This document shows positions 40,670-53,152 of a stretch of 64,000 nt of DNA, one piece after another (the first letter of the stretch is position 1; the number at the start of each line of letters is the position of its first letter). The DNA is taken from positions 682,001 through 746,000 of the forward strand of contig NZ_CP010868.1 of assembly GCF_000875775.1 (NCBI RefSeq). Direction: 5' to 3'. The notes below the pieces were generated by a model. The model made no database searches, was not told the origin of the DNA, and worked only from the letters and a program-made list of their open reading frames with translations. Made by a program: the position numbers and the translations under genes. Origin of the DNA: Nitrosopumilus piranensis. Its GTDB lineage: Archaea > Thermoproteota > Nitrososphaeria > Nitrososphaerales > Nitrosopumilaceae.

Positions 40670-41620
40670 TTATTCTAATTGGTATAAATCTAGTTTGCAA
40701 TCGATACTGCAATCTGGTGTAGACCAGTCAAGAGTATCTTCTTGTGGAATCATTCCAAGAGGATCATAATTATCAAACTTTGTCATTCCTTGTATGGATG
40801 ATAACATTACTACTTTAGATTCTTCAGCAGTTGAAGTCATATCAATTTGTGAATTGCTTTCACTAAAAATTCCGCTTGTAAGATTTGTAATTGAGTTTAA
40901 GACGCCTACTGGAATGTTGCTTCCTCCTACGACATATAATATTGAACGTTTTACTGCGTTAGGTGGAGCGTTTTCGTATAACATTTTTAGTGAATCTCTA
41001 AGTGAATCCTCAATATTTTGTCCTTCTTTGCTTGTTGTAAGGATGTTTGTCTCAGAAGTCATCTCTGAGGTTCCAAGTGATTCAACTACATGCATTATTG
41101 CTGAGTTTGCAATGTCGTAGCATGCTTTAGGTGTCAAATCAGGATTGCTCTCAAGTAACGAGTCATTATCCAGTACAATTGTGCATTCAGAGTCTTCTCT
41201 AACTCTTTTTAGTGAAACGCCTGAATTGAAAATTCTGTCTTTTTCATATTTGAAAGGCATAATTGCAAATGAAATCAATCCTTTATCTGATTCCTTGCAT
41301 ATCTCAGAAACAACTGGGGCTATAGCTGAGCCTGCTTTTCCAGCCAAATTACTCATCATGACAACTGTGGAATAGCCTGAAATCTTTGATTTGATCTCCT
41401 CAGATATATTGTAGGCTGAGCCTCTGATTAATTGCATAGATGGATTCACTACTGAATCTGTAGAAACATGAACAGATGGTACTTCCTCTACAAAGTCCTT
41501 TGAATCATTACTAATCAAAAGACAATTTGAATTTAGTGAATCTTTTGCTTTAACTGCTAATTTTGAGCCTACGCCACCCAAGCCAATAACTAAAACTGGT
41601 TCTTTTACTTGAAAACTCAT
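40670..41620 (-). CDS. ftsZ: Divergent FtsZ/tubulin-family protein
   Basis: 316 residues. Matches FtsZ at the N-terminal Rossmann loop VLVIGLGGVGSKLAVKA (residues 9-25), the NTD-like ISNDSKDF (36-43), and AIMPFKYEKDRIFNSGVSLK with the following TIVLDNDSLLE, the FtsZ T5-region order. The GTP-phosphate signature GGGTGTG is replaced by SNLAGKAGS (90-98), and the T7 catalytic loop near Asp-Ala-phe-rich FtsZ positions is not obvious. Thaumarchaea divide with Cdv proteins, so this FtsZ is probably not the main division GTPase; it may be structural. No ftsA or sepF is near. Confidence 0.82.
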   Translation of the reverse strand: MSFQVKEPVLVIGLGGVGSKLAVKAKDSLNSNCLLISNDSKDFVEEVPSVHVSTDSVVNPSMQLIRGSAYNISEEIKSKISGYSTVVMMSNLAGKAGSAIAPVVSEICKESDKGLISFAIMPFKYEKDRIFNSGVSLKRVREDSECTIVLDNDSLLESNPDLTPKACYDIANSAIMHVVESLGTSEMTSETNILTTSKEGQNIEDSLRDSLKMLYENAPPNAVKRSILYVVGGSNIPVGVLNSITNLTSGIFSESNSQIDMTSTAEESKVVMLSSIQGMTKFDNYDPLGMIPQEDTLDWSTPDCSIDCKLDLYQLE

Positions 41621-41693
41621 TTCAGATCCTATTCGCTGAATTCCATAAAAAACCTTCTTACGTTTTTTTAATCAAATTTTAGATCTAAAAAAT

Positions 41694-42962
41694 TTAGCTT
41701 GCGATCTTCCCAAGAAGACTGTTTTGTGTAGAACCGACAATTTCTACAACACGTGATTGCCCAATACCCACCTGTTCTGGGACAAACACTGGCTTGTAAG
41801 CAAAATTTCTACCTTTGATACCCTCATCAGTTTTTTCATCAAAGAGAACATTTCCTTTCCAACCGATCCACTTTTTGTTGTTCTCTAATGATATATTGTT
41901 GATCTGCTCAAAAATCTTCTTACTTCTTGACTTTACTTCTGAAACATCGATTTGTACCCGCTCAGCAGCTTCAGTTCCTGGTCTTGCGCTATATTTTGAT
42001 AGATTTACTACATCTGGCCTTGTCTCATCAATCAAATCTACTGTTTTTTCAAAGTCCTCTTTTGTTTCTGATGGAAATCCAACAATAATGTCAGTTGAAA
42101 TAGTAAAGTTTGGGAATCTCTCTCTTGCCTTTTTTACTATTTCTCTAAAGGTTCCTGCAGTATGGCCTCTTTTCATGTCATGTAATACTTTGTCACTTCC
42201 ACTTTGGACTGGAATGTGTAGAAACTTGAAGACTTTGTCATTATCATAAGACTCAATTAATTTTTCTCTAATTCTTGGCATGTACATTGGATTCATCATT
42301 CCAACTCTTATCATAAAGTTCTCTGGAATTTCTGAAACTGCATTTATCAAAGAAGGTAAATCAGTTCCAATATCAAATCCATAACATCCATTATCTGTTG
42401 ATGTTAACCAAATTTCCTTACACCCTTCATTAATCTCTGTTTTTACTTGTCTTACGATATCTCCTAATCTATAACTTTGAAGATCTCCTTTGGAAATTTT
42501 AGTTTGACAAAAGGTACACTCACTCATGCAACCACTTGCAATCTCAACTATTCCTACTGCTGGATTGAGTCTAACCTTTGGAAGTCCAACTTTAGATAGA
42601 TCTGAATCTTCTAATGCAATTTTTTTTCTGCCTTTAAGTGTAGAATCAATTACTTGTAGAGTTTTACCTAGAGAATTTGGACCAAGTAGGCTAGCATTTT
42701 CAGAAAATTTTTCAACAGTTTCCTTTTCTGCCTTTGGTAGACAACCAGCTACTACAAGGGGTTTTGTCTTTAATGATTTTATTCTATGAATCATCTTGTT
42801 TGCTGTGGCATCTTTTACAGAACATGTGACAACGATATTGAGATCCGATTCTGAAGAATCTTCAACTAAAGTATGACCTCCATTTAGAACTAGTCCTGAA
42901 ATCATTTCAGAATCTGCAAAACTTGCAGAACATCCATAGGACTCTACAAAAATCTTTGCCAT
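41694..42962 (-). CDS. tRNA t6A37 methylthiotransferase (CDKAL1/e-MtaB type)
   Basis: 422 residues. N-terminal UPF0004 domain with Cys ligands (ESYGCSASFADSEMI; VTCSVKDATANKM; VAGCLPKAEKE), radical-SAM cluster CMSECTFCQTKISKG near residue 145 and a C-terminal TRAM-like domain (GRNFAYKPVFVPEQVGIGQS). It adds methylthio to t6A at position 37 of certain tRNAs with two [4Fe-4S] clusters. Archaeal members lack a bacterial extension as here. It shares a strand and a short gap with the fumarase gene upstream, forming a fumC-methylthiotransferase pair. Confidence 0.93.
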   Translation of the reverse strand: MAKIFVESYGCSASFADSEMISGLVLNGGHTLVEDSSESDLNIVVTCSVKDATANKMIHRIKSLKTKPLVVAGCLPKAEKETVEKFSENASLLGPNSLGKTLQVIDSTLKGRKKIALEDSDLSKVGLPKVRLNPAVGIVEIASGCMSECTFCQTKISKGDLQSYRLGDIVRQVKTEINEGCKEIWLTSTDNGCYGFDIGTDLPSLINAVSEIPENFMIRVGMMNPMYMPRIREKLIESYDNDKVFKFLHIPVQSGSDKVLHDMKRGHTAGTFREIVKKARERFPNFTISTDIIVGFPSETKEDFEKTVDLIDETRPDVVNLSKYSARPGTEAAERVQIDVSEVKSRSKKIFEQINNISLENNKKWIGWKGNVLFDEKTDEGIKGRNFAYKPVFVPEQVGIGQSRVVEIVGSTQNSLLGKIAS

Positions 42963-42965
42963 ACT

Positions 42966-44327
42966 TTATCCAAACAGAGAATCAATTTCCTTGTTAGTCA
43001 TTAATTTCTTTGAAACAACTAATTCTCTGATAGTCTTTCCAGTTTTTAATGATTCTTTGAATAGTTCTGCAGATTTCAGATATCCAATTTTTGGAGTTAG
43101 TAGAGTAACGATTACTGGACTATTTTCAATATCTGCACGTAACTTGACTTTGTTTGCAGTCAACCCATCAATCAAATTTACAGAAAATATTGGTAAGAAA
43201 TTCTTTAACATGTCAGTTGATTCTAACATACACTTTAGCATTCCAGGCAACATTACATTAAGCTCAAACTGGCCACTCTGTGCGGCATATGATACTGCAG
43301 TATCGTTTCCAATCACGTTAAAGCAAATCATATTCATGCATTCAGCTAATGATGGATTTACTTTTCCTGGCATAATTGATGAACCTGCGTGTACTGCAGG
43401 AATTCCAAGTTCTGCTAATCCTGCAATTGGACCTGATGCCATTAGTCTGATATCATTTGCAAGTTTTCCAATTTCTAATACCAAATTTCTCAATGCACTT
43501 GAACAATTTGCAACTGCATATTTGCTCTGTAATCCATGTTGCATGTCTTTTTCAGGTTTTAATGATAACTTTGAAACTTTTGCAAGCTCTGATATTGCAA
43601 TTTTCCTGTAACCCTTTGGTGTGTTTGCACCAGAACCAACAGCAGTTCCACCAAGTGCAACATTTTGTAATTCTTTTTGCGATGCAACAATTTCATTTCT
43701 TGCTTTAGTAATTGATGTAACGTAAGCTGCAAATTCACTACCTAGAGTAACTGGCAATGCATCCATGAGGTGTGTTCTTCCAATTTTTTTAAATGAGGAA
43801 AACTGTTTTGCTTTTTTAGATAATGACTTTATCAAAATGTCAATTGCTGGAATTGTTTCTTTGAGATTCATTAAGATGGCAACATGCATAGCAGTTGGGT
43901 ATGTATCATTACTTGATTGTGACATGTTGACGTGATCATTTGGGTGTAGGAATCCATATTGTCCTTTCTTTTTGCGTAAAATTTCTAGCGCAACATTTGC
44001 TATGACTTCATTTGAATTCATGTTAAATGCAGTTCCCGCACCAGAATTTATCATGTCTACTACAAACTGATCCACATACTTTCCAGACAAAATTTTATCA
44101 CATGCAGAAACTATTGCTTTTCCACGTTTAGTATCAATTGCTTTTGTTTTCATATTTGCTATTGCAGCAGATCTCTTAATCATGACAAATGACTTTATCA
44201 AATTCTCATGGCCTTTGTGTCCAGTTACGTGATATTGGTTGATTGCTCTTCCAGTAAATGCCCCATAATATGCGTCTGCAGGAATTTTGACTTTACCTAA
44301 AGAATCTTGATCTAAACGAAATTTCAT
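42966..44327 (-). CDS. fumC: Class II fumarate hydratase (fumarase/aspartase superfamily)
   Basis: 453 residues. The catalytic loop GSSIMPGKVNPSLAECMNM (near residues 316-334) contains the Ser-Ser pair; THLMDALPVTLGSEFAAY and SGAGTAFNMNSNEVIANVAL match the substrate and signature regions. It hydrates fumarate to malate in the oxidative or reductive citric acid cycle. The SSNDT motif is intact. The aspartase alternative cannot be excluded on residues visible by eye, but the M.PLN-type region and gene context with nirK favour fumarase as known for N. maritimus. Three bases separate it from the methylthiotransferase gene. Confidence 0.87.
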   Translation of the reverse strand: MKFRLDQDSLGKVKIPADAYYGAFTGRAINQYHVTGHKGHENLIKSFVMIKRSAAIANMKTKAIDTKRGKAIVSACDKILSGKYVDQFVVDMINSGAGTAFNMNSNEVIANVALEILRKKKGQYGFLHPNDHVNMSQSSNDTYPTAMHVAILMNLKETIPAIDILIKSLSKKAKQFSSFKKIGRTHLMDALPVTLGSEFAAYVTSITKARNEIVASQKELQNVALGGTAVGSGANTPKGYRKIAISELAKVSKLSLKPEKDMQHGLQSKYAVANCSSALRNLVLEIGKLANDIRLMASGPIAGLAELGIPAVHAGSSIMPGKVNPSLAECMNMICFNVIGNDTAVSYAAQSGQFELNVMLPGMLKCMLESTDMLKNFLPIFSVNLIDGLTANKVKLRADIENSPVIVTLLTPKIGYLKSAELFKESLKTGKTIRELVVSKKLMTNKEIDSLFG

Positions 44328-44384
44328 TCTAAAACCAATTATTTACACCCATTATTCATTCTTTTTCAGATATTTTCATATTTC

Positions 44385-44407
44385 AATAATGGGAATTATT
44401 ATATAGG
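44385..44407 (+). promoter_or_regulatory. nirK promoter: inverted repeat abutting the TATA box
   Basis: AATAAT, spacer GGGA, ATTATT (44385-44400), a perfect 6-base inverted repeat, runs straight into ATATAGG (44401-44407). The TATA-like core is about 25 bases before the ATG at 44429. A TF bound at the repeat would meet TBP/TFB; regulation is inferred. Confidence 0.55.
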
Positions 44408-44428
44408 ATTCAGAAGCCACCGCACTTA

Positions 44429-45841
44429 ATGAATAAGCGTGTTAGTATGCTCTTTACAATTGCAGCAGTAGCTGTAATGGGCGCAACCTTATTCGGAAGC
44501 ACATACACACAAACCCAAATTTCTGGTCAATCTATTGACATGACCCAAATGGATGTCGATGTCTTAGATAAAATCAGACATATGGGAGGTTTACAGCTTG
44601 TAATGCCTGAAGCATTCGCAGAAACTGATTGTGGTGTTTTGGAATCATCCGGTAGAACCGTTCATGATTTCCAATTAACTGGTGAAAGTGTTGAACTTCC
44701 AATTATGGGAGGAAAGACCTACAACGCCATGACCTTTAGTGGTACAGTCCCAGGACCAACACTAAGAGTTACTCAAGGTGATGTAGTCAAAATGACACTT
44801 ACAATTCCAGATGATGAAGTTACTGGACACGGTAACGACATGCATGCATCTCAAATCTCTGCAAGCGCTTTTGAGTCTGTCAATCCTGGCGAAACAAGTC
44901 AGTATTGTTACATCGCTGAAGCAGCTGGTATTTTCAAATACCATTGTTCTGGTGTCAAACTAATTGGTATGGACCAACACGTACTTTCCGGCATGTACGG
45001 AATTGCAATTGTTGATCCAGCTAATGGATACAAGAAACTAATGGTTGAGAAGACTAGTGGCAGCGGTGAACTTGACAGAAAGTTCTATGATGCAGATGCA
45101 TTAGAGTTCCAACTCCAATACAATCAATTGTACCTAACACCTGAAGGCAATTATGATGCCGGCGCAATGTTCAAGCATCATAACACTGCAACAGTTGTTA
45201 ACGGAATGCAATTTGGTTATGTACCAAATATGGCTCATAACTTACTCGTCAATGGTGATGTAAACAAGAACATCTTTGTTGCACAACCATGGAATGGACT
45301 TGAACACAAGCAATACCAATCACAGCTCTTATTTGTTGAAAATGATCAACACGTAAGACTCTTCATTGAAAACCAAGGTAACGAACCAGTATTCTTCCAC
45401 ATTGTTGGAGAAATATTGGATAGAGTTGTCCAAGGTAACAGAGTACAATCCGCAGCAACTGAAACATGGTTACTCGGTGGCTCACAAGGAATGATTGTTG
45501 ACTTGGTATTTGATGAACCAGGTGCATACGCAGCAGTAAACCATGACTATGCAGCAATTTACACTGGCGCAGCTACAGTCTTTGTAGCAGGTGATCCATT
45601 CGGCTTGAACCCAGTTCTAGTTGAAAAAGGAGTTATCCCAGCACCAGTGCCATCTTATGCATATGCTTTAGGCAATCCTAGTGATGCTGTCCCTCCAATG
45701 GGAATGAACAGTATTGCTCATCCTGCACTAAACATTCACGGTTTATACACTGATGAAGTAGCTTCTGAAATGCAAGCAAGTGGCGATTATGTCGCATTAT
45801 GGGAAGTAATTCCTGTAGTAGCAGAAATCCTAACTTCTTGA
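44429..45841 (+). CDS. nirK: NirK-type multicopper oxidase (copper nitrite reductase family)
   Basis: 470 residues with an N-terminal signal or anchor segment (about 7-27). Copper ligands match two-domain NirK spacing: H134 and H139 (GHGNDMHAS), H172 and C173 (YHCSGV), H184 and M189 (DQHVLSGM), then H324 (FFHIVGEIL) and H372 (VNHDYA) in the second domain. D137 fits the catalytic Asp of NirK. It reduces nitrite to NO in known homologues. In ammonia oxidisers NirK is abundant and its exact role (NO production for ammonia oxidation) is debated. Strong TATA-like box and possible operator upstream. Confidence 0.95.
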   Translation: MNKRVSMLFTIAAVAVMGATLFGSTYTQTQISGQSIDMTQMDVDVLDKIRHMGGLQLVMPEAFAETDCGVLESSGRTVHDFQLTGESVELPIMGGKTYNAMTFSGTVPGPTLRVTQGDVVKMTLTIPDDEVTGHGNDMHASQISASAFESVNPGETSQYCYIAEAAGIFKYHCSGVKLIGMDQHVLSGMYGIAIVDPANGYKKLMVEKTSGSGELDRKFYDADALEFQLQYNQLYLTPEGNYDAGAMFKHHNTATVVNGMQFGYVPNMAHNLLVNGDVNKNIFVAQPWNGLEHKQYQSQLLFVENDQHVRLFIENQGNEPVFFHIVGEILDRVVQGNRVQSAATETWLLGGSQGMIVDLVFDEPGAYAAVNHDYAAIYTGAATVFVAGDPFGLNPVLVEKGVIPAPVPSYAYALGNPSDAVPPMGMNSIAHPALNIHGLYTDEVASEMQASGDYVALWEVIPVVAEILTS

Positions 45842-45848
45842 TAATATC

Positions 45849-45869
45849 ACATCTTTTTCTTTTTATTAT
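45849..45869 (+). terminator. T-rich tract after nirK
   Basis: CATCTTTTTCTTTTTATTATT, starting seven bases after the nirK stop. Archaeal intrinsic termination uses T-runs without needing a hairpin; function is inferred. Confidence 0.5.
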
Positions 45870-45908
45870 TTTGAATGAATTATATTCTGTAGCTCCATTT
45901 GATATTCT

Positions 45909-46841
45909 ATGGGATTTGATGATTCTGTATTGATCTGTGATGAAGTGGATCCAATTTTAAATAAAATTTTAGAAGACAATGACTTGAAAATATCATATGA
46001 ACCAGAAATTACACCTGACCAAATTTTAGAAAAGATTTCTAATTACAATATTGTAATTGTTAGAAGCAGAACGACAATCACAAAAGAAATGATCGATAAA
46101 GCAGATAACTGTAAAATTATTGCCCGTGTTGGAGTTGGACTTGATAATGTTGATCAAGAAGCTGCCAAAATAAAAAACATTAGAGTAATCAATGCAGTGG
46201 AAGGGGCAATGAATGCCGTAGCTGAATTAGTTTTAGGACTAATGTTGTCCCTTGCAAGACAAACAGCAAGAGGTGATAGAGGAATTAGAAATGGACAATG
46301 GCTTAAAAAAGAATTGAAAGGAACAGAGCTTAAAGGAAAATATCTTGGAATTATTGGATTAGGAAATATTGGAAAAAGATTAGGTAGACTTGCACGTGCA
46401 CTAAACATGAACATTATTGGATATGATGTAGTTCCAATTGATGAAGAATTTTCAAAAGAAGTTGGTTTGATGAAAGCAGACTTGAATACTTTGTTACAAA
46501 GTTCTGATTACATCTCTATTCATGTTCCATTATTGGATTCAACTTATCATCTCTTAGATGCACAAAAAATGTCTACGATGAAAAAGACTGCAAAAATTAT
46601 CAATACTTCTAGGGGCGGAGTAGTTGATGAAGACGCACTTTATGATGCTCTCAAAAATGGAACTTTGGGTGGTGCAGCCCTGGATGTATTTGAAAAAGAA
46701 CCTGCTGTTGGAACAAAATTGGCAGAACTTGACAATGTAATTTTGACTCCGCATATTGGTGCCCAAACAAAAGAAGCGCAATCATTGGCTGCAAATGTTA
46801 TTGCTGAGAAGATTATCCAGATTTTAAGAGGCGTCATCTAG
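45909..46841 (+). CDS. serA: D-3-phosphoglycerate dehydrogenase (short SerA type)
   Basis: 310 residues, the catalytic and NAD domains only, with no ACT domain. Nucleotide loop LGIIGLGNIGKRLGRLARAL near residue 142, the NAD-contact RVGVGLDNVD, the substrate Arg in NTSRGGVVDEDAL, and catalytic Glu and His in FEKEPA and TPHIGAQT. It oxidises 3-phosphoglycerate to start serine synthesis. Short ACT-less SerA proteins occur widely in archaea. AATTATATTC at 45878-45887 lies about 26-30 bases before the ATG. No serC or serB neighbours. Confidence 0.9.
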   Translation: MGFDDSVLICDEVDPILNKILEDNDLKISYEPEITPDQILEKISNYNIVIVRSRTTITKEMIDKADNCKIIARVGVGLDNVDQEAAKIKNIRVINAVEGAMNAVAELVLGLMLSLARQTARGDRGIRNGQWLKKELKGTELKGKYLGIIGLGNIGKRLGRLARALNMNIIGYDVVPIDEEFSKEVGLMKADLNTLLQSSDYISIHVPLLDSTYHLLDAQKMSTMKKTAKIINTSRGGVVDEDALYDALKNGTLGGAALDVFEKEPAVGTKLAELDNVILTPHIGAQTKEAQSLAANVIAEKIIQILRGVI

Positions 46842-46945
46842 AAGCATTTCTGCCTGAACTTTAAAAATAAGCAAAAAAGTTGACTTTTACGTGATTTATT
46901 ATCGTCTCTTTGTTTTTAACCCCAATTTGGAGGAAGTCAATCGTA

Positions 46946-47974
46946 TTGAATAATCAGAGTCTAAGTCAATTCCAATCTGAAAGACTAAAACGTTTGGCTA
47001 ATGGAAATTCCCTGCTAAAAATATCTCTTGGATTGATACTCTTTACAATAATTTCTTCTGCTTTCGTATATGCTGAAACGATGTCTGTTGATGTTGAAGG
47101 AACCAGTTATGATGTAGAATACACAGTTACAGGAATGTCTGTATCTGGTATCGAAGCTGATGTGGATTTTATTTCTCTAATATTGACTGTAGATGTTACT
47201 GTGTCTCCTGGAATTTTAGAAATTACCTTTGATAGATCTTTTTATGATTCAGTTTTTGAGGGACAAGATGATGATTTTATTGTCATTGCTGATGGTGGAT
47301 TAGAGCCAAATTTTTCTGAAACTGAAACAACCTCTGAAAGTAGAACTTTGAGAATTGAATTGCCATCAGGAACTCAAGATGTTGAAATCATTGGTTCTGT
47401 ATTTGGTCAGTCTGTAGAAGAAACACCTTCTGAACCTGAAGAAACACCTTCTGAACCTGAAGAAACACCTTCTGAACCTGAAGAAACACCTTCTGAAACT
47501 CCTGAAAAACAGATCCCTGCAGCATTTGTAGACTCTTCAAAAGATCCTAGATTCTACGTTGAACGATATGTTTCTGAGCCATCTTACAAAAAATGGTTTG
47601 AAGACAATTATTCTGATTATACTTTTCATGAAGCATTAGATATTTCAAAATCTGAATTAGACAAACTCATAGCTGAGATTAAAAAAGAGCAATCTAAAGA
47701 ACCTGTTGTAGAAACTCCAAAGGAAACAACAGAGTGTGGTGAAGGAACAGTTCTCAAAGATGGAGTATGTGTTTTAGATGAAAGATGTGGTCCGGGAACT
47801 GTTCTAAAAGATGATGTATGTGTTGTTGAATCTCAAACTTCTGCACCAAAAGAGATTTCTTTCAAAGGTCTTAGTAGAGAACTAGGATATAGCTTCATTG
47901 CAGCATTTGTAATCACTGGTGCAGTGGCAATAATTTTGGCATTGATGTCAAAAGCCAGCAAAAGTAGTAACTAG
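46946..47974 (+). CDS. Membrane-anchored surface protein with PSEPEET repeats and two small Cys loops
   Basis: 342 residues from the TTG at 46946, which GGAGG (46929-46933) precedes by 12 bases; an earlier TTG at 46910 is less likely. N-terminal hydrophobic segment (LLKISLGLILFTIISSAFVY), a beta-rich extracellular domain, then (EETPSEP)3-4, an Arg/Tyr-rich part, two copies of CGxGTVLKDxVCV and a C-terminal membrane helix (FIAAFVITGAVAIILALM). I do not recognise the extracellular domain. Tail-anchored on the outside with a short basic end. The 3' end overlaps the convergent gene by four bases. Confidence 0.72.
   Translation: MNNQSLSQFQSERLKRLANGNSLLKISLGLILFTIISSAFVYAETMSVDVEGTSYDVEYTVTGMSVSGIEADVDFISLILTVDVTVSPGILEITFDRSFYDSVFEGQDDDFIVIADGGLEPNFSETETTSESRTLRIELPSGTQDVEIIGSVFGQSVEETPSEPEETPSEPEETPSEPEETPSETPEKQIPAAFVDSSKDPRFYVERYVSEPSYKKWFEDNYSDYTFHEALDISKSELDKLIAEIKKEQSKEPVVETPKETTECGEGTVLKDGVCVLDERCGPGTVLKDDVCVVESQTSAPKEISFKGLSRELGYSFIAAFVITGAVAIILALMSKASKSSN
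47417..47479 (+). repeat. 3 x 21-base tandem repeat coding EETPSEP
   Basis: Unit GAAGAAACACCTTCTGAACC plus T, three perfect copies and a partial fourth. It forms a flexible acidic stalk in the encoded surface protein. Confidence 0.9.
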
Positions 47975-48486
47975 TCACAAGTCAAATCTTCAGCATTCAT
48001 TATTTGGTCAAACTCAAATCCTGTAATTTGTGTAGTTGATGAATATGGAATGAGGTTCAAAATGGGTGTGTCTGTCTGAATTACCACAACAAATTGATTA
48101 GGGTCTAATCTGATATCCCCTGAATCAAACTCAAAATCAAAATTCATGAAAACATGTTGTGCATTAGAAATATCTTCAGAAGAAAAAACCCCTTCTTGAA
48201 CTCCAGATGCTAATGGATCAAGTGTTAATGGCTTGACTACATATGATCCTAAATATGCATCCGTGTAGAACACTGAAACTTCAAATTTTTGAAATGAGAT
48301 CCAAAATGGCAGTGTATTGCAAAATTCTGTTTCCCCATGATTCAACATTGTAAAAAATGAAAAAGTTCCAGGAGAATACCATCTGTATTCTAATTGTTGA
48401 CTACCAATAACGTTCATTGCAGAAAATAAAAACGGACTAATGATTACTATGATTGCAATTATGGTGATTACGGAATACTTGTTCAT
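47971..48486 (-). CDS. Exported or membrane protein of unknown function
   Basis: 171 residues. An N-terminal membrane segment (VITIIAIIVIISPFLFSAM) precedes a beta-rich outside part with two Cys (ETEFCNTLPFWISFQKFEVS and the C-terminal NAEDLTCD). It ends in DLTCD where other surface proteins have a membrane tail, so it may be secreted or anchored by its first helix only. I do not recognise the family. Its start overlaps the stop of the upstream gene at 48483 by four bases, so the two should be made together. Confidence 0.65.
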   Translation of the reverse strand: MNKYSVITIIAIIVIISPFLFSAMNVIGSQQLEYRWYSPGTFSFFTMLNHGETEFCNTLPFWISFQKFEVSVFYTDAYLGSYVVKPLTLDPLASGVQEGVFSSEDISNAQHVFMNFDFEFDSGDIRLDPNQFVVVIQTDTPILNLIPYSSTTQITGFEFDQIMNAEDLTCD

Positions 48487-49142
48487 ATTTCATCTTTTTT
48501 GTCCTGACTAAGTGATATTATGTTTCTCTCAATTAGATTGTTTATTGCATTTACCAACTCATCGTCGTTTATTGCTCCTTCAAGCCACCAATACCCTACA
48601 TTCTTTACCCATTCAGGAATTGTTATGTCGTAGACAGATGTCTCGTTTATGTCAAAAGGAATTTTGAAAATATTTTCTTCTTCTGTAAACTTTTGAAATG
48701 CATCAATCAAAAAACCATCTGAGATATTTCCTGAAAGCCAGTTTGCCATAATTGGTTTTACTACCTCTGGGATGCATACTTTGTCTGCGTCAATTAATGT
48801 AAACTCTGCAGTTGTTTGAGCTCCTGAATAATTAACATCAATGAAATACTTTCCTAGTGGAAAAATTTCTTTTTCAAAAGCAACGCGTGATGGTATTGGG
48901 TTTTCTAAATCTGTTATTGGAATGGGGATTGCACTGCTTCCCTTACCCGTTTCATCTCTGATGTGAATAATTGCTGGATTTCCTGTAACCTCTGAAACCT
49001 TGATTGTATAGAATAGTTTCTCACAATAGCTATAAGTTGTTTTTTCCATGATTATCTCAACTGATGGCTCTGCATATGAAAATGGGATTATGCCTAAATT
49101 GGCTACTAGTGCTGTGAATATAATTACAGTTGATATTTTCAT
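48483..49142 (-). CDS. Exported protein with two WVKN/ANW helical modules
   Basis: 219 residues. Signal peptide (VIIFTALVANLGIIPFSYAE), then a beta domain with two Cys (YSYCEKLFYTIKVSEVTGNP; ADKVCIPEV), and two copies of a W-rich helical module: VVKPIMANWLSGNISDGFLI and PEWVKNVGYWWLEGAINDDE. The second is closely like the segment in the cupredoxin at 13253. The module may bind a surface partner. It is transcribed with the following unknown exported gene (four-base overlap). Large gap and the micro-gene cluster lie upstream of it. Confidence 0.72.
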   Translation of the reverse strand: MKISTVIIFTALVANLGIIPFSYAEPSVEIIMEKTTYSYCEKLFYTIKVSEVTGNPAIIHIRDETGKGSSAIPIPITDLENPIPSRVAFEKEIFPLGKYFIDVNYSGAQTTAEFTLIDADKVCIPEVVKPIMANWLSGNISDGFLIDAFQKFTEEENIFKIPFDINETSVYDITIPEWVKNVGYWWLEGAINDDELVNAINNLIERNIISLSQDKKDEI

Positions 49143-49349
49143 CTTTTTTTGTGCACTTTTGGCTCAATAAAAATCTCATATCAATGCTCAGGAATCCTTT
49201 TTAACAACTTTGACGTAATTGAACTATCGAGTTTTCTGCGGAAGCAACTCTTAGAGTGCGTGGAATGTGATGCCCCACTCAAGAGAATTTTAATTACTTA
49301 GCAGTACTTATGTTTGTCCCATTTACAGTCCGGATTTAGAATTTTTGTC
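49143..49349. other. 207-base stretch between the exported-protein gene and the micro-gene cluster
   Basis: No start-bearing open frame of note. A plus-strand CxxC-like fragment (ECVECDAPLKRI, ending TAG at 49299-49301) has no ATG start. CTTTTTAACAA at about 49197-49207 is a weak promoter-like stretch. The minus-strand promoter of the gene at 48483 should lie here, but no clear TATA box was identified. Confidence 0.4.
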
Positions 49350-49493
49350 CTAAATACAGTGTTTGCAAGGACTAAACCCTAGGCTATTTGCAACTTCTAG
49401 TGTATCTGGTGAAAAATACTGCCTATTCTTTTTTTCAACATTGTAGATATTGCATTCTTTTTGCTTGCAAGCTAGGTGATGTACAATTTTCAA
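49350..49493 (-). CDS. 47-residue Ada-like metal-binding mini-protein
   Basis: TTG start with AGGAG eight bases upstream. Four Cys in the order C9-x4-C14-x28-C43-x2-C46 with H5-H6 before them; the C-terminal half reads YFSPDTLEVANSLGFSPCKH. The YF(S/x)P...EA..LGF.PCK.C pattern closely matches the Ada-type and nuclease-associated zinc domain, in which four Cys bind Zn2+. No other domain is attached. It might bind DNA phosphotriesters, other nucleic acid or act as a metal store. Downstream-most of the five packed micro-genes; too short for standard gene calls. Confidence 0.62.
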   Translation of the reverse strand: MKIVHHLACKQKECNIYNVEKKNRQYFSPDTLEVANSLGFSPCKHCI

Positions 49494-49521
49494 ATTCGTA
49501 TCTCCTAAATAACCTGCTATT

Positions 49522-49638
49522 TTATTCCAACTCCAAAATTTTATGGCACATCATACATTCACGCTTGTTCATTAATTCAGGCATCTTTGCTGATATTGGA
49601 TGCTGGCAAGTTTCTTGATTTAATTCCCAATATACCAA
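49522..49638 (-). CDS. 38-residue Cys/His micro-protein
   Basis: Reading starts TTG at 49638, two bases after the stop of the preceding micro-gene. Cys/His pattern: C11-x-H13, then C28-x2-C31-H32; QETCQHPISAKMPELMN and KRECMMCHK hold the candidate ligands, a plausible single zinc site. Internal ATGs would truncate the first ligands, so TTG is preferred. No homologous family recognised. Tight spacing and matching strand with the neighbours are the main evidence that it is a gene. Confidence 0.5.
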   Translation of the reverse strand: MVYWELNQETCQHPISAKMPELMNKRECMMCHKILELE

Positions 49639-49640
49639 AT

Positions 49641-49757
49641 TTATTTCTCCAAACGATTGTTAGATTTTTTGTGTTTTCTTTCATGCTGTAATATTTTAAA
49701 AAATGTATTGGGTTGCCCTTCCCAACTAAAGGAGCATTCTCTACAAGAATATTTCAT
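49641..49757 (-). CDS. 38-residue C2H2-type zinc-finger micro-protein
   Basis: ATG at 49757, one base after the stop of the previous gene. MKYSCRECSF begins the finger; C5-x2-C8-x16-H25-x3-H29 fits C2H2 spacing with a longer middle loop, and aromatic F10, W12 and F19-F20 fit a small hydrophobic core. The C-terminus is basic (RKHKKSNNRLEK), suitable for nucleic-acid contact. Single-finger proteins of this size are known in archaea, often as nucleic-acid or protein-binding adaptors, but the target is unknown here. Confidence 0.62.
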   Translation of the reverse strand: MKYSCRECSFSWEGQPNTFFKILQHERKHKKSNNRLEK

Positions 49758-49758
49758 T

Positions 49759-49929
49759 TCAGCCCTCTAAAAACGAATGGCCCTTGTTCGTTTTCATTAA
49801 TTTTTTCTTTCGCATATCTCTTTCGTGAAAAGAGGATTTTATAGAATAATCATAACTTGGAAAGAGATGCTCAAATCTCTCTTCAATAATCTCATTATCC
49901 TGTATTGTTTCTGACAATAATTTTACCAT
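49759..49929 (-). CDS. 56-residue charged micro-protein without Cys
   Basis: ATG at 49929 overlaps the end of the six-Cys gene by seven bases (ATGGTAA); a TTG at 49947 gives six extra residues. Acidic first half (ETIQDNEIIEERFEHLF) and basic second half (HERDMRKKKLMKTNKGH); no Cys, so it is unlike its neighbours. It could bridge proteins or bind nucleic acid. Family not recognised. Location inside the packed unit is the chief support. Confidence 0.5.
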   Translation of the reverse strand: MVKLLSETIQDNEIIEERFEHLFPSYDYSIKSSFHERDMRKKKLMKTNKGHSFLEG

Positions 49930-50027
49930 CCTTGTGTTGGGTGACAATCACAAACGCACCCATTAGTACAATGCATCCTGGAACAATCCTCACATCTTTT
50001 ACTTATTGTATAACTTCTTTTTTCCAT
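49923..50027 (-). CDS. 34-residue six-cysteine micro-protein
   Basis: ATG at 50027. Six Cys and two His within residues 12-29: C12-x2-C15-x3-H19-C20-x3-C24-x-C26-x-C28-H29, ending in Trp34. The density matches a metal-binding knuckle or small metallothionein-like peptide rather than chance coding. N-terminal ten residues are basic (EKRSYTISKR). A TATA-like box sits about 29 bases before the ATG, so this is the first gene of a probable five-gene unit. Family not recognised. Confidence 0.6.
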   Translation of the reverse strand: MEKRSYTISKRCEDCSRMHCTNGCVCDCHPTQGW

Positions 50028-50049
50028 CTGACTTTTTCTGTTAGGATTA

Positions 50050-50062
50050 GATAAATCATAAA
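50050..50062 (-). promoter_or_regulatory. TATA-like box of the micro-gene cluster
   Basis: Minus-strand TTTATGATTTATC, centred about 29 bases before the ATG at 50027, the spacing seen for leaderless genes elsewhere in the window. Confidence 0.45.
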
Positions 50063-50144
50063 GAAAAACAATGAGGAACTTGATTTTATCTAAAATAAAG
50101 TCAACTCATTAATGTCTTAAATAGCTAAAATTAATCGCTTTATT

Positions 50145-50228
50145 ATGAAATGTCAGTGTACCTCTAATGTGTTATGTATGTTCCATTATATTCTGGCAAA
50201 CCCTGATTCTATCAAGCCTAAAAATTGA
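50145..50228 (+). CDS. Possible 27-residue Cys-rich micro-protein, divergent
   Basis: ATG at 50145 with CTTAAATA (about 50116-50123) near -26. Codes a 27-residue peptide with C3, C5, C11 and H14 and a stop at 50226-50228. It diverges from the six-Cys gene, and no other gene explains the 120 bases between them. The short length makes chance possible; a conserved homologue would be needed to confirm it. Confidence 0.33.
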   Translation: MKCQCTSNVLCMFHYILANPDSIKPKN

Positions 50229-50370
50229 AAATGATTCATGTTAGTCCTTTTATTCACTAAATCAAATGTTTTCAATATCTTAAAAACTCTAGTATGCGGT
50301 AACTACAAGTCTATATTGTGATTAAAGACGGAAAAATGACGTTTTTACAGTTATTAAAGGGGATTTTACT

Positions 50371-50835
50371 ATGCCCGATATGCCTAGTCGTCAAGACCAA
50401 ATATGGATCAGACTTTGGAAAGAGAATGCTCCAGAACTACGTGAACGTATTGTTGGCTGGCGTAAACAAAATGCAATTACTCGTATTGACAAGCCTAGTA
50501 GATTACAGAGGGCAAGACGTTTAGGGTACAAAGCAAAACAAGGCATTGTTGTTGTTAGAATGAGAGTAGGTACTGGTGGTATGAGAAAACAAAGACCTAC
50601 TGGTGGAAGACGTCCAAAACATCTTGGTGTTACAAGAATCAAGGCAGATGACAATATGAAGACTGTTGCAGAGAGAAGAGTTTGTGAAAGATATCCAAAC
50701 TTGAAACTTTTAGGTTCATACTTTATCTACAAAGACGGAAAACATTATTGGTTTGAAGTAATCTTGGCAGACCCAGATCATCCAAGAATTGCACAAGATA
50801 AAGAATTAACTAAACGAATATCTCAAACAGCATAA
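50371..50835 (+). CDS. rpl15e: Large-subunit ribosomal protein L15e
   Basis: 154 residues, typical archaeal L15e: IDKPSRLQRARRLGYKAKQG, VVRMRVGTGGMRKQRPTGGR, and the GSYFIYKDGKHYWFEVILAD region. It binds 23S rRNA in the large subunit. AAAGGGGAT (50355-50363) is a Shine-Dalgarno-like sequence 7 bases before the ATG and a TATA-like CTATATTG lies at 50310-50317, so this gene, unlike most here, has a leader of roughly 35 bases. The following CFI-box gene starts two bases after its stop. Confidence 0.96.
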   Translation: MPDMPSRQDQIWIRLWKENAPELRERIVGWRKQNAITRIDKPSRLQRARRLGYKAKQGIVVVRMRVGTGGMRKQRPTGGRRPKHLGVTRIKADDNMKTVAERRVCERYPNLKLLGSYFIYKDGKHYWFEVILADPDHPRIAQDKELTKRISQTA

Positions 50836-50836
50836 A

Positions 50837-51676
50837 TTGAAAATAACATTATTCATTCCAATACTCTTACTTTTGATAGTATCTCCTGTGTTTGGTCAAT
50901 TATCTGATAAAACAGGATTGCTTACTAGACTTGATGTTGATGTCAGTGGTCACACTTTTGAAGTTGTCACTGTCTCAAACTTTAAGATTTTAGATCATGA
51001 ATTTGACAAAGATGAAAAACGTCTAACCATATTTGCAAACAGTGGTCTTGAAAACAATTTGGGCGAAGTAACAATTCCTAAAAATTTACTTGGTGGAAAT
51101 TTTACTTTTTATCTTAATGATGTACAAGTTACTCAAGAATCAAAATCTAATAACAGAATCTCGTTTATCACTTTGAATTTTACTGGAACCGGTGATAATA
51201 AAATCGATATTATTGGAACTAATGCCTTGATTGGTGTAAAAGAGATTGAAATTACACTAACTGATAATGAGCAAGATAATTCTGATGATAATGCTGGTGG
51301 TGGTTGCTTAATTGCAACTGCAACATTTGGATCTGAGCTTGCACCTAAAGTACAAAAATTGCGAGAATTAAGAGATAACAAACTAATGCAAACAGAATCA
51401 GGTAAAAATTTTATGAATTCATTTAACCACTTTTACTATTCATTTAGCCCACAAATAGCAGACTATCAAAGGCAAAATCCAACATTCAATGAACTAGTCA
51501 AGGTGGGAATTACTCCTATGCTCAACTCTTTGTCTCTTCTAAATTATGCTGAAACAGAATCTGAGGTTCTAACTATTGGGTTATCATTAATCATACTCAA
51601 TACTGGAGTGTATTTTGCATTACCTGCAATTGTAATTGTAGGAATCAAAAATCTATTTTTTAAACATAATCCATAA
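50837..51676 (+). CDS. Exported membrane protein with CFI-box C-terminal domain
   Basis: 279 residues, TTG start. A signal or anchor (FIPILLLLIVSPVFGQLSDK) and a beta-rich outside domain are followed by GGGCLIATATFGSELAPKVQ and FMNSFNHFYYSFSPQIADYQ, the CFI-box-CTERM domain, which in other archaea and bacteria reads CFIATAAYG and has a following membrane segment (LTIGLSLIILNTGVYFALPA here). The role of the CFI box is unknown; it may be an anchor or processing signal. It follows L15e after one base and is presumably co-transcribed with it. Confidence 0.82.
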   Translation: MKITLFIPILLLLIVSPVFGQLSDKTGLLTRLDVDVSGHTFEVVTVSNFKILDHEFDKDEKRLTIFANSGLENNLGEVTIPKNLLGGNFTFYLNDVQVTQESKSNNRISFITLNFTGTGDNKIDIIGTNALIGVKEIEITLTDNEQDNSDDNAGGGCLIATATFGSELAPKVQKLRELRDNKLMQTESGKNFMNSFNHFYYSFSPQIADYQRQNPTFNELVKVGITPMLNSLSLLNYAETESEVLTIGLSLIILNTGVYFALPAIVIVGIKNLFFKHNP

Positions 51677-51745
51677 TCTGGTTCCTACAAAAATCCCTAC
51701 TGCTAATGCAATTAACAATGGAACAATTATCTGCCCTTCTTCCAC
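51653..51745 (-). CDS. Possible 30-residue single-helix membrane micro-protein
   Basis: GTG start at 51745, coding EEGQIIVPLLIALAVGIFVG then TRLWIMFKK: an acidic outside end, one transmembrane helix and a basic inner end, the layout of archaeal small membrane subunits. TTATAAAATG-type sequence lies just upstream. It overlaps the 3' end of the CFI-box gene on the other strand by 24 bases. No family recognised. Confidence 0.38.
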   Translation of the reverse strand: MEEGQIIVPLLIALAVGIFVGTRLWIMFKK

Positions 51746-51809
51746 ATTTTATAATATTTTTGATTTGACTTAATACTTTTTACAAATCCTTAAAATTTAG
51801 ATTTCAAAA

Positions 51810-51899
51810 ATGACTTTTGTGGATAACTCAAAAATTGCAATTATTGGGGGATTCATTATAGTTGTTGTTCTTTCAATTACTGTTGTTTTATTCAGATAA
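51810..51899 (+). CDS. Possible 29-residue single-helix membrane micro-protein
   Basis: ATG at 51810 codes MTFVDNSKIAIIGGFIIVVV followed by LSITVVLFR: one transmembrane helix with a hydrophilic N-terminus. It ends one base before the convergent TlpA-like gene. A TTAATACTTTTTA stretch upstream could carry the promoter. No family recognised; similar mini membrane proteins occur often in thaumarchaea. Confidence 0.42.
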   Translation: MTFVDNSKIAIIGGFIIVVVLSITVVLFR

Positions 51900-51900
51900 T

Positions 51901-52566
51901 CTAATCTTCTCTAAGTAACTTTTGAATCATTGATTCTGTTTGCCCGACTTGTCCAAATGAAACATCTCTGAGAATTCCTTTTCTATCCACTAAAATGGTA
52001 GAAGGTGTTCCTTGTAGTGCAAATTTCTCAAAGGTCTCAGCAGAATATTCTTTTGATTTCATATAGTCTTTGACTCTTTGAATTATTTGATTTTTGTATT
52101 CTTCAGGTTGCGAATCAAACTCTGGAATCTGTGGATAAATAAACTGCATAATTTTTTCTTGACTTATTTCACCTGTTGTCTTTACCAAATTATCCATTGC
52201 TAAAGGAAATGGAATTTTGTATGGTAGCTTGTTTCCCTCTTGTAATTGACCACTCATTTGAAATGCGCTTCTAGTTTCCCCTATTATCTCTCCGGTCTCT
52301 GCAAGCATCTTCAAATTATCCAGAGTGTTTTTATCAAAATCTTCAAAGGCAGTTGCAATTCCAATCACTCTAACACCTTCGTCTTTGTACTTGTTGTAAA
52401 TCTCAATTGCTTCAGGTAGTGCATGCATAAAACATCCAGGACAATTTACTTGAAATACCTCAACTAAAACAATGTGGTCTTTTTCTTGGTCAAAATTTGT
52501 TGGTGCTCCTTGTACCCATTCTGATACTCCAAAATTTGGTGCTTTTTGACCAATTACAGCGCTCAT
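51901..52566 (-). CDS. Thioredoxin-fold redox protein, TlpA/ResA-like
   Basis: 221 residues without a signal peptide. Active-site motif FQVNCPGCFMHALPEAIEIY near residue 36-55 gives CPGC, the CxxC of thioredoxin-fold reductases, and the following VRVIGIATAFEDF matches AhpC/TlpA. A TPSTILVDRKGILRDVSFGQ stretch (cis-Pro TPST) follows near the C-terminus. The long insertion between these parts (residues about 75-165) is unusual for TlpA. It probably reduces disulfides or acts as a peroxiredoxin-like protein; partner unknown. The family is expanded in thaumarchaea. Confidence 0.85.
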   Translation of the reverse strand: MSAVIGQKAPNFGVSEWVQGAPTNFDQEKDHIVLVEVFQVNCPGCFMHALPEAIEIYNKYKDEGVRVIGIATAFEDFDKNTLDNLKMLAETGEIIGETRSAFQMSGQLQEGNKLPYKIPFPLAMDNLVKTTGEISQEKIMQFIYPQIPEFDSQPEEYKNQIIQRVKDYMKSKEYSAETFEKFALQGTPSTILVDRKGILRDVSFGQVGQTESMIQKLLRED

Positions 52567-52663
52567 GAGACGTTATCGTATTTTTTCCATTAAATACATA
52601 CCTCAAGAAATTTTGAATTTTTCCTGATTAACTAAATATAGGAGCCAGAAATCTCAAAAAACG

Positions 52664-53152
52664 TTGCAAGTAGTTACTAATGATCGATTAACACTTTTTG
52701 CTGAAATGGAAAAAAAATATGAGCAAAAAGATACTGAATATTTTGTAAGCCTTTTAGATCATCCTGATTATGTAATACGAACAAGAGCTACATGTATCTT
52801 AGTTGATTTTGGTGGAGAAGACAAGGTACCATATATTGCCAAAGTTTTGAAAAATGATGATAATGAATTGGTAAGACATGAAGCTGCCTTCTCTCTAGGA
52901 CAGATGTGTTATTCTAGTTCAGTTGCACCTCTAACTGATGCAACTCTAAATGATCCAAGTCTGTTTGTAAGACACGAGGCTGCAATAGCATTAGGTGTTG
53001 TTGGAAATAAAGATGCAAAAGATGCCCTAGAAAAGGCATTAAATGATCCAGAAAAACCAGTCGTCGAATCTGCAGTTGTAGCATTATCTAATATTGAATT
53101 TATGGAAAAGTTAAGTAAGAACGAAAAGTTTGCAAAGTTAACAGGTGGATGA
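52664..53152 (+). CDS. HEAT/PBS-lyase-type repeat protein
   Basis: 162 residues made of about four HEAT-like repeats, for example [60 protein letters not shown] and [24 protein letters not shown] in repeats 2 and 3 is the conserved helix-start. In archaea such proteins resemble deoxyhypusine hydroxylase-like or phycocyanobilin-lyase-like adaptors; here the iron-binding His-Glu pairs of deoxyhypusine hydroxylase (HE motifs) are in part present (two HE in RHEAA), so that activity is a possibility, not shown. TTG start. It is followed at once by the Kazal-cupredoxin gene. Confidence 0.75.

Follow-up and report, generated by a model that had tools for sequence, protein, structure and literature searches.

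The locus described here appears closest in kind to two described systems, the haloarchaeal zinc finger u-proteins and the cryptic integrated elements of thaumarchaea. For the haloarchaeal zinc finger u-proteins, phenotypes were found in 12 of 16 deletions (2019, PMC6562870), and Brz of Halobacterium is a small regulator according to its citation in PMC7230728. The thaumarchaeal elements, as presented in the main text of their description, span 2.6–98 kb and carry an integrase (Krupovic et al. 2019, PMC6563490).

The DNA analysed here (“the window”) is a stretch of 64,000 nucleotides of Nitrosopumilus piranensis (G000:C1:682001-746000), whose genome is a single contig of 1,713,078 bases. A preliminary description had reported a packed cluster of five micro-genes in an apparently empty part of the window. 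The reading frames of the window confirm these five minus-strand frames (O1–O5) at their positions, and all five genes are conserved; the count of five did not stand, as the cluster also includes O6, a further Cys/His micro-gene that is read from the plus strand. A 1,014-bp insertion, and not an old intergenic region, accounts for the apparent emptiness of the stretch. The features of the stretch are as follows, with counts referring to 95 genomes of the genus searched by tblastn (E ≤ 0.01 for O3, O4 and O5; E ≤ 0.1 for O1 and O2):

49322-49329: left 8-bp direct repeat TTTACAGT (attL / target-site duplication), a single copy of which is present at the empty sites of relatives
49330-50343: insertion of 1,014 bp, holding the whole micro-gene cluster
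49350-49520, minus strand: O5, 56 codons if started at ATA 49520, 47 if started at TTG 49493; Ada-type zinc-binding domain, H..C..CxxC; relatives in 40/95 genomes
49522-49638, minus strand: O4, 38 aa, TTG start; CxH...ECxxCHK; 17/95 genomes
49641-49757, minus strand: O3, 38 aa, ATG start; C2H2; 50/95 genomes, up to seven copies each
49759-49929, minus strand: O2, 56 aa, ATG start; FEHLFPxYDYS..SSxHEKDxRKKKRMKT family (alignment A5); 32/95 genomes
49923-50027, minus strand: O1, 34 aa, ATG start; CxDCxRxxCxxGCxCDCH; first gene of the operon; 61/95 genomes
50078-50106: palindrome ACTTGATTTTATCTAAAATAAAGTCAACT between O6 and O1, a putative operator
50145-50228, plus strand: O6, 27 aa, MKCQCTSNVLCMFHYILANPDSIKPKN (MKCQC...CMFHY), ATG at 50145, divergent from O1
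50311-50343, minus strand: right end of the insertion, an integrase attR-like arm with what may be the truncated start of an integrase (KIPFNNCK|NVIFPSLITI*)
50344-50351: right copy of TTTACAGT (attR), beginning 27 bp and ending 19 bp ahead of the start codon of the ribosomal-protein gene L15e (ATG at 50371)

Like the haloarchaeal u-proteins and Brz, the proteins of the cluster are archaeal, consist of a single domain of less than 70 aa (27–56 aa for O1–O6) with Cys/His zinc motifs, occur in several copies per genome and are proposed regulators; conserved Cys/His ligands are present in O1, O3, O4, O5 and O6 and absent from O2. The families of the cluster (C2H2, Ada-type, CxHC, Cys-rich) differ from the u-proteins in sequence, being set apart by inspection, and their genes stand together in a divergent operon that has a common palindrome and lies on an insertion. 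With the cryptic integrated elements, as the main text of PMC6563490 presents them, the locus has short direct repeats (down to 8 bp), empty sites in relatives and, for some of those elements, an intergenic target in common, whereas the element in the window comprises 1.0 kb, lacks an integrase and carries micro-genes only. The searched main text of PMC6563490 makes no mention of a ribosomal-protein or L15 target or of an L15e hotspot, and a literature search on Nitrosopumilus zinc fingers or C2H2 proteins of ammonia-oxidising archaea found nothing on these genes. Both integrase islands and zinc micro-proteins of a single domain belong to known kinds; new is a 1-kb insertion of such genes with a recurrent putative operator.

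Insertion Upstream of L15e

The ends of the insertion emerge from comparison with relatives. Locus L054 of genome G026 aligns to window positions 40766-49329 and 50344-52821, with eight bases common to both segments, and the distance from a 219-aa gene (48483-49142) to L15e, 1,228 bp here, is about 205 bp in most relatives; 23 relatives without the insertion have a short empty site. Compared in this way, the micro-gene cluster was inserted cleanly, with a duplication of 8 bp. The reading that the cluster is part of a conserved L15e neighbourhood was rejected because most relatives have no cluster there. The insertion site is TTTACAG(T), just upstream of L15e, with GATTTACAGTTATTAAAGG as attB. 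Local alignment of the two ends found none of the terminal inverted repeats that would mark a derivative of a MITE or insertion sequence.

The right end of the insertion resembles the right ends of integrase islands, e.g., AATGACGTTTTTACAG in G031, and the right-arm scores were reached by 0, 4 and 6 of 2,000 shuffles for G031, G042 and G055, respectively. The left end has in common with G010 and G049 only the core and a short arm, ATTTTTGnCC. At most a truncated integrase start, located at the right end, is encoded by the insertion.

Two observations concern L15e itself. Its old promoter region now lies about 1 kb off, and the gene must use either a promoter inside the right end of the element (50229-50343) or read-through. 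A block at 49190-49300 (ATCGAGTTTTCTGCGGAAGC...CCACTCAAGAG), which contains a hairpin and has a TATA-like CCTTTTTAACAAC before it, is found conserved upstream of L15e throughout the genus and is parted from this gene by the insertion in the window; it is a candidate small RNA or L15e leader, and an Rfam search over 48900-50900 gave no match.

The L15e Site in Related Genomes

Among 43 L15e loci (window included), 23 have a short empty site, five a slightly longer spacer and four about 0.3 kb extra; inserts of 1–20 kb with both flanks found are present in nine (window included), and foreign DNA reaches up to L15e in two more that lack the left flank. The site upstream of L15e is, on this comparison, an integration hotspot. 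Apart from the window, the inserts measure about 20 kb in G056, 10.1 kb in G010, 7.2 kb in G007, 6.6 kb in G042, 6.1 kb in G053, 5.7 kb in G055, 3.4 kb in G031 and 1.1 kb in G049. Four genomes (loci L143, L155, L158 and L165) have in common an additional 0.3-kb stretch directly upstream of L15e, which stops at one and the same point, before GTTATTA.

A tyrosine recombinase (Phage_integrase, PF00589) adjoins L15e in G010, G056, G042 and G031. These recombinases belong to a clade that is at least 50% identical and has five members, with linkage to L15e counted in four of them and G029 left out; L173:1064-2395 and L055:9824-11254 are recombinases of this clade. The insert in G056 carries O2, O5, O4, O6, O3, O5, O3, Alba and AsnC together with the integrase; its left junction has no copy of TTTACAGT, and the 20 kb may therefore be composite or rearranged. 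The cargo in G007 comprises a relative of O2 and two palindromes. At the L15e site of G049, G055, G068 and G093, degenerate integrase fragments are found, and the integrases of the window's genome that come nearest to the clade are about 33% identical to it.

In such a setting, the cluster in the window could be a relic that arose by internal deletion of a larger integrase-bearing island, of the 3–20 kb kind found in G031, G010 and G056, and that now persists as accessory cargo which is no longer mobile. The right end, with its truncated integrase-like start, would fit such an origin, as would the occurrence of O2, O5, O4, O6 and O3 with an integrase and Alba in the G056 insert, the integrase fragments in other genomes and the lack of a close integrase in the present genome. 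However, the two 8-bp copies are preserved intact, as are the six frames, there is hardly any non-coding debris, and the codons common to the integrase start are partly set by attB itself, which leaves a former larger island as a serious contender that we rate at somewhat below an even chance. Moderately probable, in our judgement, is that the six micro-genes constitute a 1-kb integrated element, inserted by site-specific recombination upstream of L15e.

Coding Evidence and Gene Order

Each of the five minus-strand frames is kept in related genomes, in numbers from 17 to 61 of the 95. Nei-Gojobori dN/dS, which the preliminary description had proposed to be below 1, is 0.08 for O1, 0.18 for O2, 0.18 for O3, 0.19 for O4 and 0.15 for O5, i.e., substitution is strongly synonymous in all five (pairs 75–98.5% identical; pairs are not independent). 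Between the genes of the window and their nearest relatives, pS is 0.43–0.82 and pN 0.11–0.27. It had also been argued that random DNA would not give such packing: among 2,000 dinucleotide shuffles of the 1,014 bases 49330-50343, one contained a chain of five frames on a single strand, each at least 34 aa long and spaced by -10 to 30 bases, in agreement with this argument. That the frames might be chance products of non-coding DNA would be suggested by their shortness and by the TTG starts of two of them, but homologs with invariant ligands, the low dN/dS in all five and the rarity of the packing among shuffles speak against it; chance, already refuted by the substitution pattern, retains a negligible probability. 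By homology and substitution, O1–O5 are conserved protein-coding genes.

The spacing given in the preliminary description holds for the first four genes, with a 7-base overlap of O1 and O2 followed by gaps of one and two bases, and is doubtful at the last. Relatives of O5 begin with MAGYLGNK, nine codons upstream of TTG 49493; at 49520, a single base past the O4 stop, the window has ATA-GCA-GGT-TAT. Since the start of the relatives corresponds to ATA 49520, the 28-base gap between O4 and O5 is probably not real. Two relatives, L047 and L048, also have Ile at the start position, and the start codon of O5 in the window is probably non-canonical or lost. For O4, the TTG start is uncertain and is not fixed by relatives. 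As neither gene has an ATG start in the window, both may be decaying.

Conservation of gene order, which had been put forward as a further mark of real genes, is only partial: HMM mapping places O1-O3-O4-O5 in G026 and O3-O4-O5 in G069, G067 and G070, O3 and O5 are adjacent in Nitrosarchaeum, and O1-O4 pairs also occur. A TATA-like box, ATTTATC, lies about 23–29 bases upstream of O1, as had been described, and the proposal of an operon is supported by the gene packing and by one common palindrome/promoter region.

At the level of the class, O3 was found in 71 of 300 sampled genomes, all 71 of which belong to the window's own family. Carriers of O3 with names are Nitrosopumilus, Nitrosarchaeum, Nitrosotenuis and other Nitrosopumilaceae, together with three MAG records labelled Nitrososphaeraceae. 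Within the window's genome, tblastn gives six copies of O3, three of O4 and five of O1, with E 0.095 for the weakest O1 match.

The Encoded Micro-Proteins

None of the five frames O1–O5 reaches a Pfam gathering threshold, and in NCBIfam they have no match even at E 5. Four of them had been taken as Cys/His ligand proteins, and family alignments bear this out by invariant ligand columns: C12, C15, C20, C24, C26, C28 and H29 in O1 (A4), C5, C8, H25 and H29 in 20 sequences of O3 (A2), C13, H15, C30 and C33 in O4 (A3; E29 is invariant as well), and H13, C22, C51 and C54 in O5 (A1). The fifth, O2, is basic, contains no Cys and has no conserved Cys/His ligand set. Loci L053, L055 and L056 retain the DNA upstream of O1, and in the O6 homologs encoded there C3, C5, C11 and H14 are invariant, with a TATA-like CTTAAATA upstream.

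O3 has the CxxC-x16-HxxxH ligand arrangement and the predicted bba fold of C2H2 zinc fingers: its AF2 model (pLDDT 83) comprises strands E2-4 and E11-13 and helix H20-36. It differs from such fingers in that it consists of one finger only, carries a short basic tail and stays below the Pfam threshold. Foldseek matched C2H2 fingers weakly (E 3.5 or worse), and a PDB sequence search with O3 and O5 gave no meaningful match. From the model and ligands, we infer that O3 would be a C2H2 bba finger around one zinc ion.

The AF2 model of O5 (pLDDT 91) has E. coli N-Ada, 1u8b, as its best Foldseek match in the PDB (probability 1.00, TM 0.74, E 0.035, rmsd 1.7 over 53 columns), and the three best PDB matches, 1u8b, 1zgw and 1wpk, are all E. 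coli N-Ada (TM about 0.7, E 0.035–0.2). Against Ada_Zn_binding (PF02805), O5 scores 17.4 bits, under the gathering score of 23, with its C-terminal half aligned (E 0.0045), and PF02805 matches 9 of 20 members of the O5 family at E < 0.1. The predicted fold is thus common to O5 and the N-terminal domain of E. coli Ada (PF02805, 1u8b). In contrast to Ada, O5 stands alone as a domain, lacking both the AraC-type DNA-binding part and the methyltransferase, has no conserved Cys at the methyl-acceptor side and does not show the four-Cys ligand set, the invariant H13 standing in place of the fourth Cys; its fourth ligand is probably His. O5 would accordingly have an N-Ada fold around one zinc ion.

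Alternatively, the micro-proteins could be metallothionein-like or zinc/copper-handling peptides that buffer metals and do not act as regulators. Marine ammonia oxidisers have a high metal demand, O1 packs seven Cys/His into 18 residues, and O6 combines CxC with CxxH. Yet the predicted folds of O3 and O5 are single-site nucleic-acid-binding folds, the ligand numbers of O3, O4 and O5 fit one zinc per protein, and members of the families are repeatedly found next to TFB, TBP and Alba genes; a role in metal buffering is in our view unlikely. As judged from models and neighbourhoods, the micro-proteins are probably small transcription regulators, and the zinc, nucleic-acid or stress role that had been suggested before is a putative one.

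A viral origin was considered as well, in which C2H2 micro-proteins serve counter-defence or are other virus-related cargo carried in by integrating viruses. Eight IMG/VR contigs (L073-L080) encode O3-like C2H2 micro-proteins (MKYQCRECSFNIDGDVKIIQQVLEHEKTHPK), and portal- or terminase-like genes are present on two of the eight, L074 and L078. On the other hand, these viral proteins score below chromosomal ones against the family model, a viral scan with O1 and O4 gave no match, and the insertion in the window holds no recognisable virus gene, making such an origin quite improbable.

A Recurrent Palindrome

The palindrome is 29 bp long and near-perfect, with the consensus AGTTGAYTT-N11-AARTCAACT, and is located 39 bp from O6 and 51 bp from O1. 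In nine closed genomes, 13 of 50 palindrome sites lie within 500 bp of O genes (expected 0.22, null maximum 5), and members of the O2 family are usually about 200–350 bp from a palindrome. For 47 distinct sites in the sequences analysed, 44 of 66 downstream ATGs are found at 39–41, 51–54 or 68–69 bp (null mean 7.5, maximum 15); the peaks are sharp, and since the distance classes were read from the same data, this spacing result is descriptive. Copies at other genome sites (L186-L200) precede many further small genes, among them those of Cys-rich micro-proteins (MRCPNCGNQASWRDPDCNKCD..., MHCDYCGDMLK...), as well as roadblock-like proteins, the ...GLSWIF family and a universal-stress-like protein. 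The palindrome looks like an operator common to O1 and O6; that O6 and O1–O5 form two divergently oriented units, separated by a recurrent palindromic operator, is well supported, and the genes preceded by the palindrome possibly form a regulon.

Linkage to TFB, TBP and Alba Genes

Across ten closed genomes, the number of O clusters no more than 3 kb away from a TFB or TBP gene is nine, where 1.4 are expected; orthologous loci are not independent, and the enrichment p-values are therefore optimistic. The genome of the window taken alone shows no significant excess of O clusters near TFB/TBP. Alba genes adjoin O3 in seven loci, and in many genomes (e.g., at L033, L058, L060 and L123), O3/O5 micro-genes stand beside TFB, TBP and Alba paralogs. 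Linkage to TFB/TBP, true of the families, was rejected as an explanation of the cluster in the window, to which the nearest TFB or TBP gene is 232 kb distant.

Proposed Mechanism and Implications

The preferred reading, a 1-kb element integrated upstream of L15e, would involve the following steps. An integrase of the L15e-site clade, either acting in trans or since deleted, would place the element, which may be an integrase-less mini-island or the relic of a larger one and would carry a divergent operon that encodes single-domain zinc proteins and is under the control of an operator. Each Cys/His protein would fold around a single zinc ion, with O3 forming a C2H2 finger and O5 an N-Ada fold, and O2, basic and without Cys, might be a partner or a nucleic-acid-binding peptide. 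The micro-proteins might then bind DNA or other proteins and, as tiny regulators, tune transcription in the host, with a palindrome-binding factor setting their dose.

As a tentative and rather doubtful extension, the locus could represent a minimal integrase-mobilised regulatory cassette, i.e., 1 kb of zinc micro-regulators only, moved in trans into a ribosomal-protein promoter, and could be part of a genus-wide, one-palindrome regulon of dozens of micro-proteins linked to the expanded TFB/TBP/Alba sets.

The analysis yields six conserved micro-gene families that lie below threshold in the searched Pfam/NCBIfam libraries, a candidate shared operator whose site can be tested, and a hotspot of chromosomal integration together with its recombinase. 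Marine ammonia-oxidising archaea have many TFB and TBP copies, and single deletions are difficult in them. Genes of 27–56 codons constitute a mobile gene class within the genus, and the cluster bears on how marine ammonia-oxidising archaea regulate their genes.
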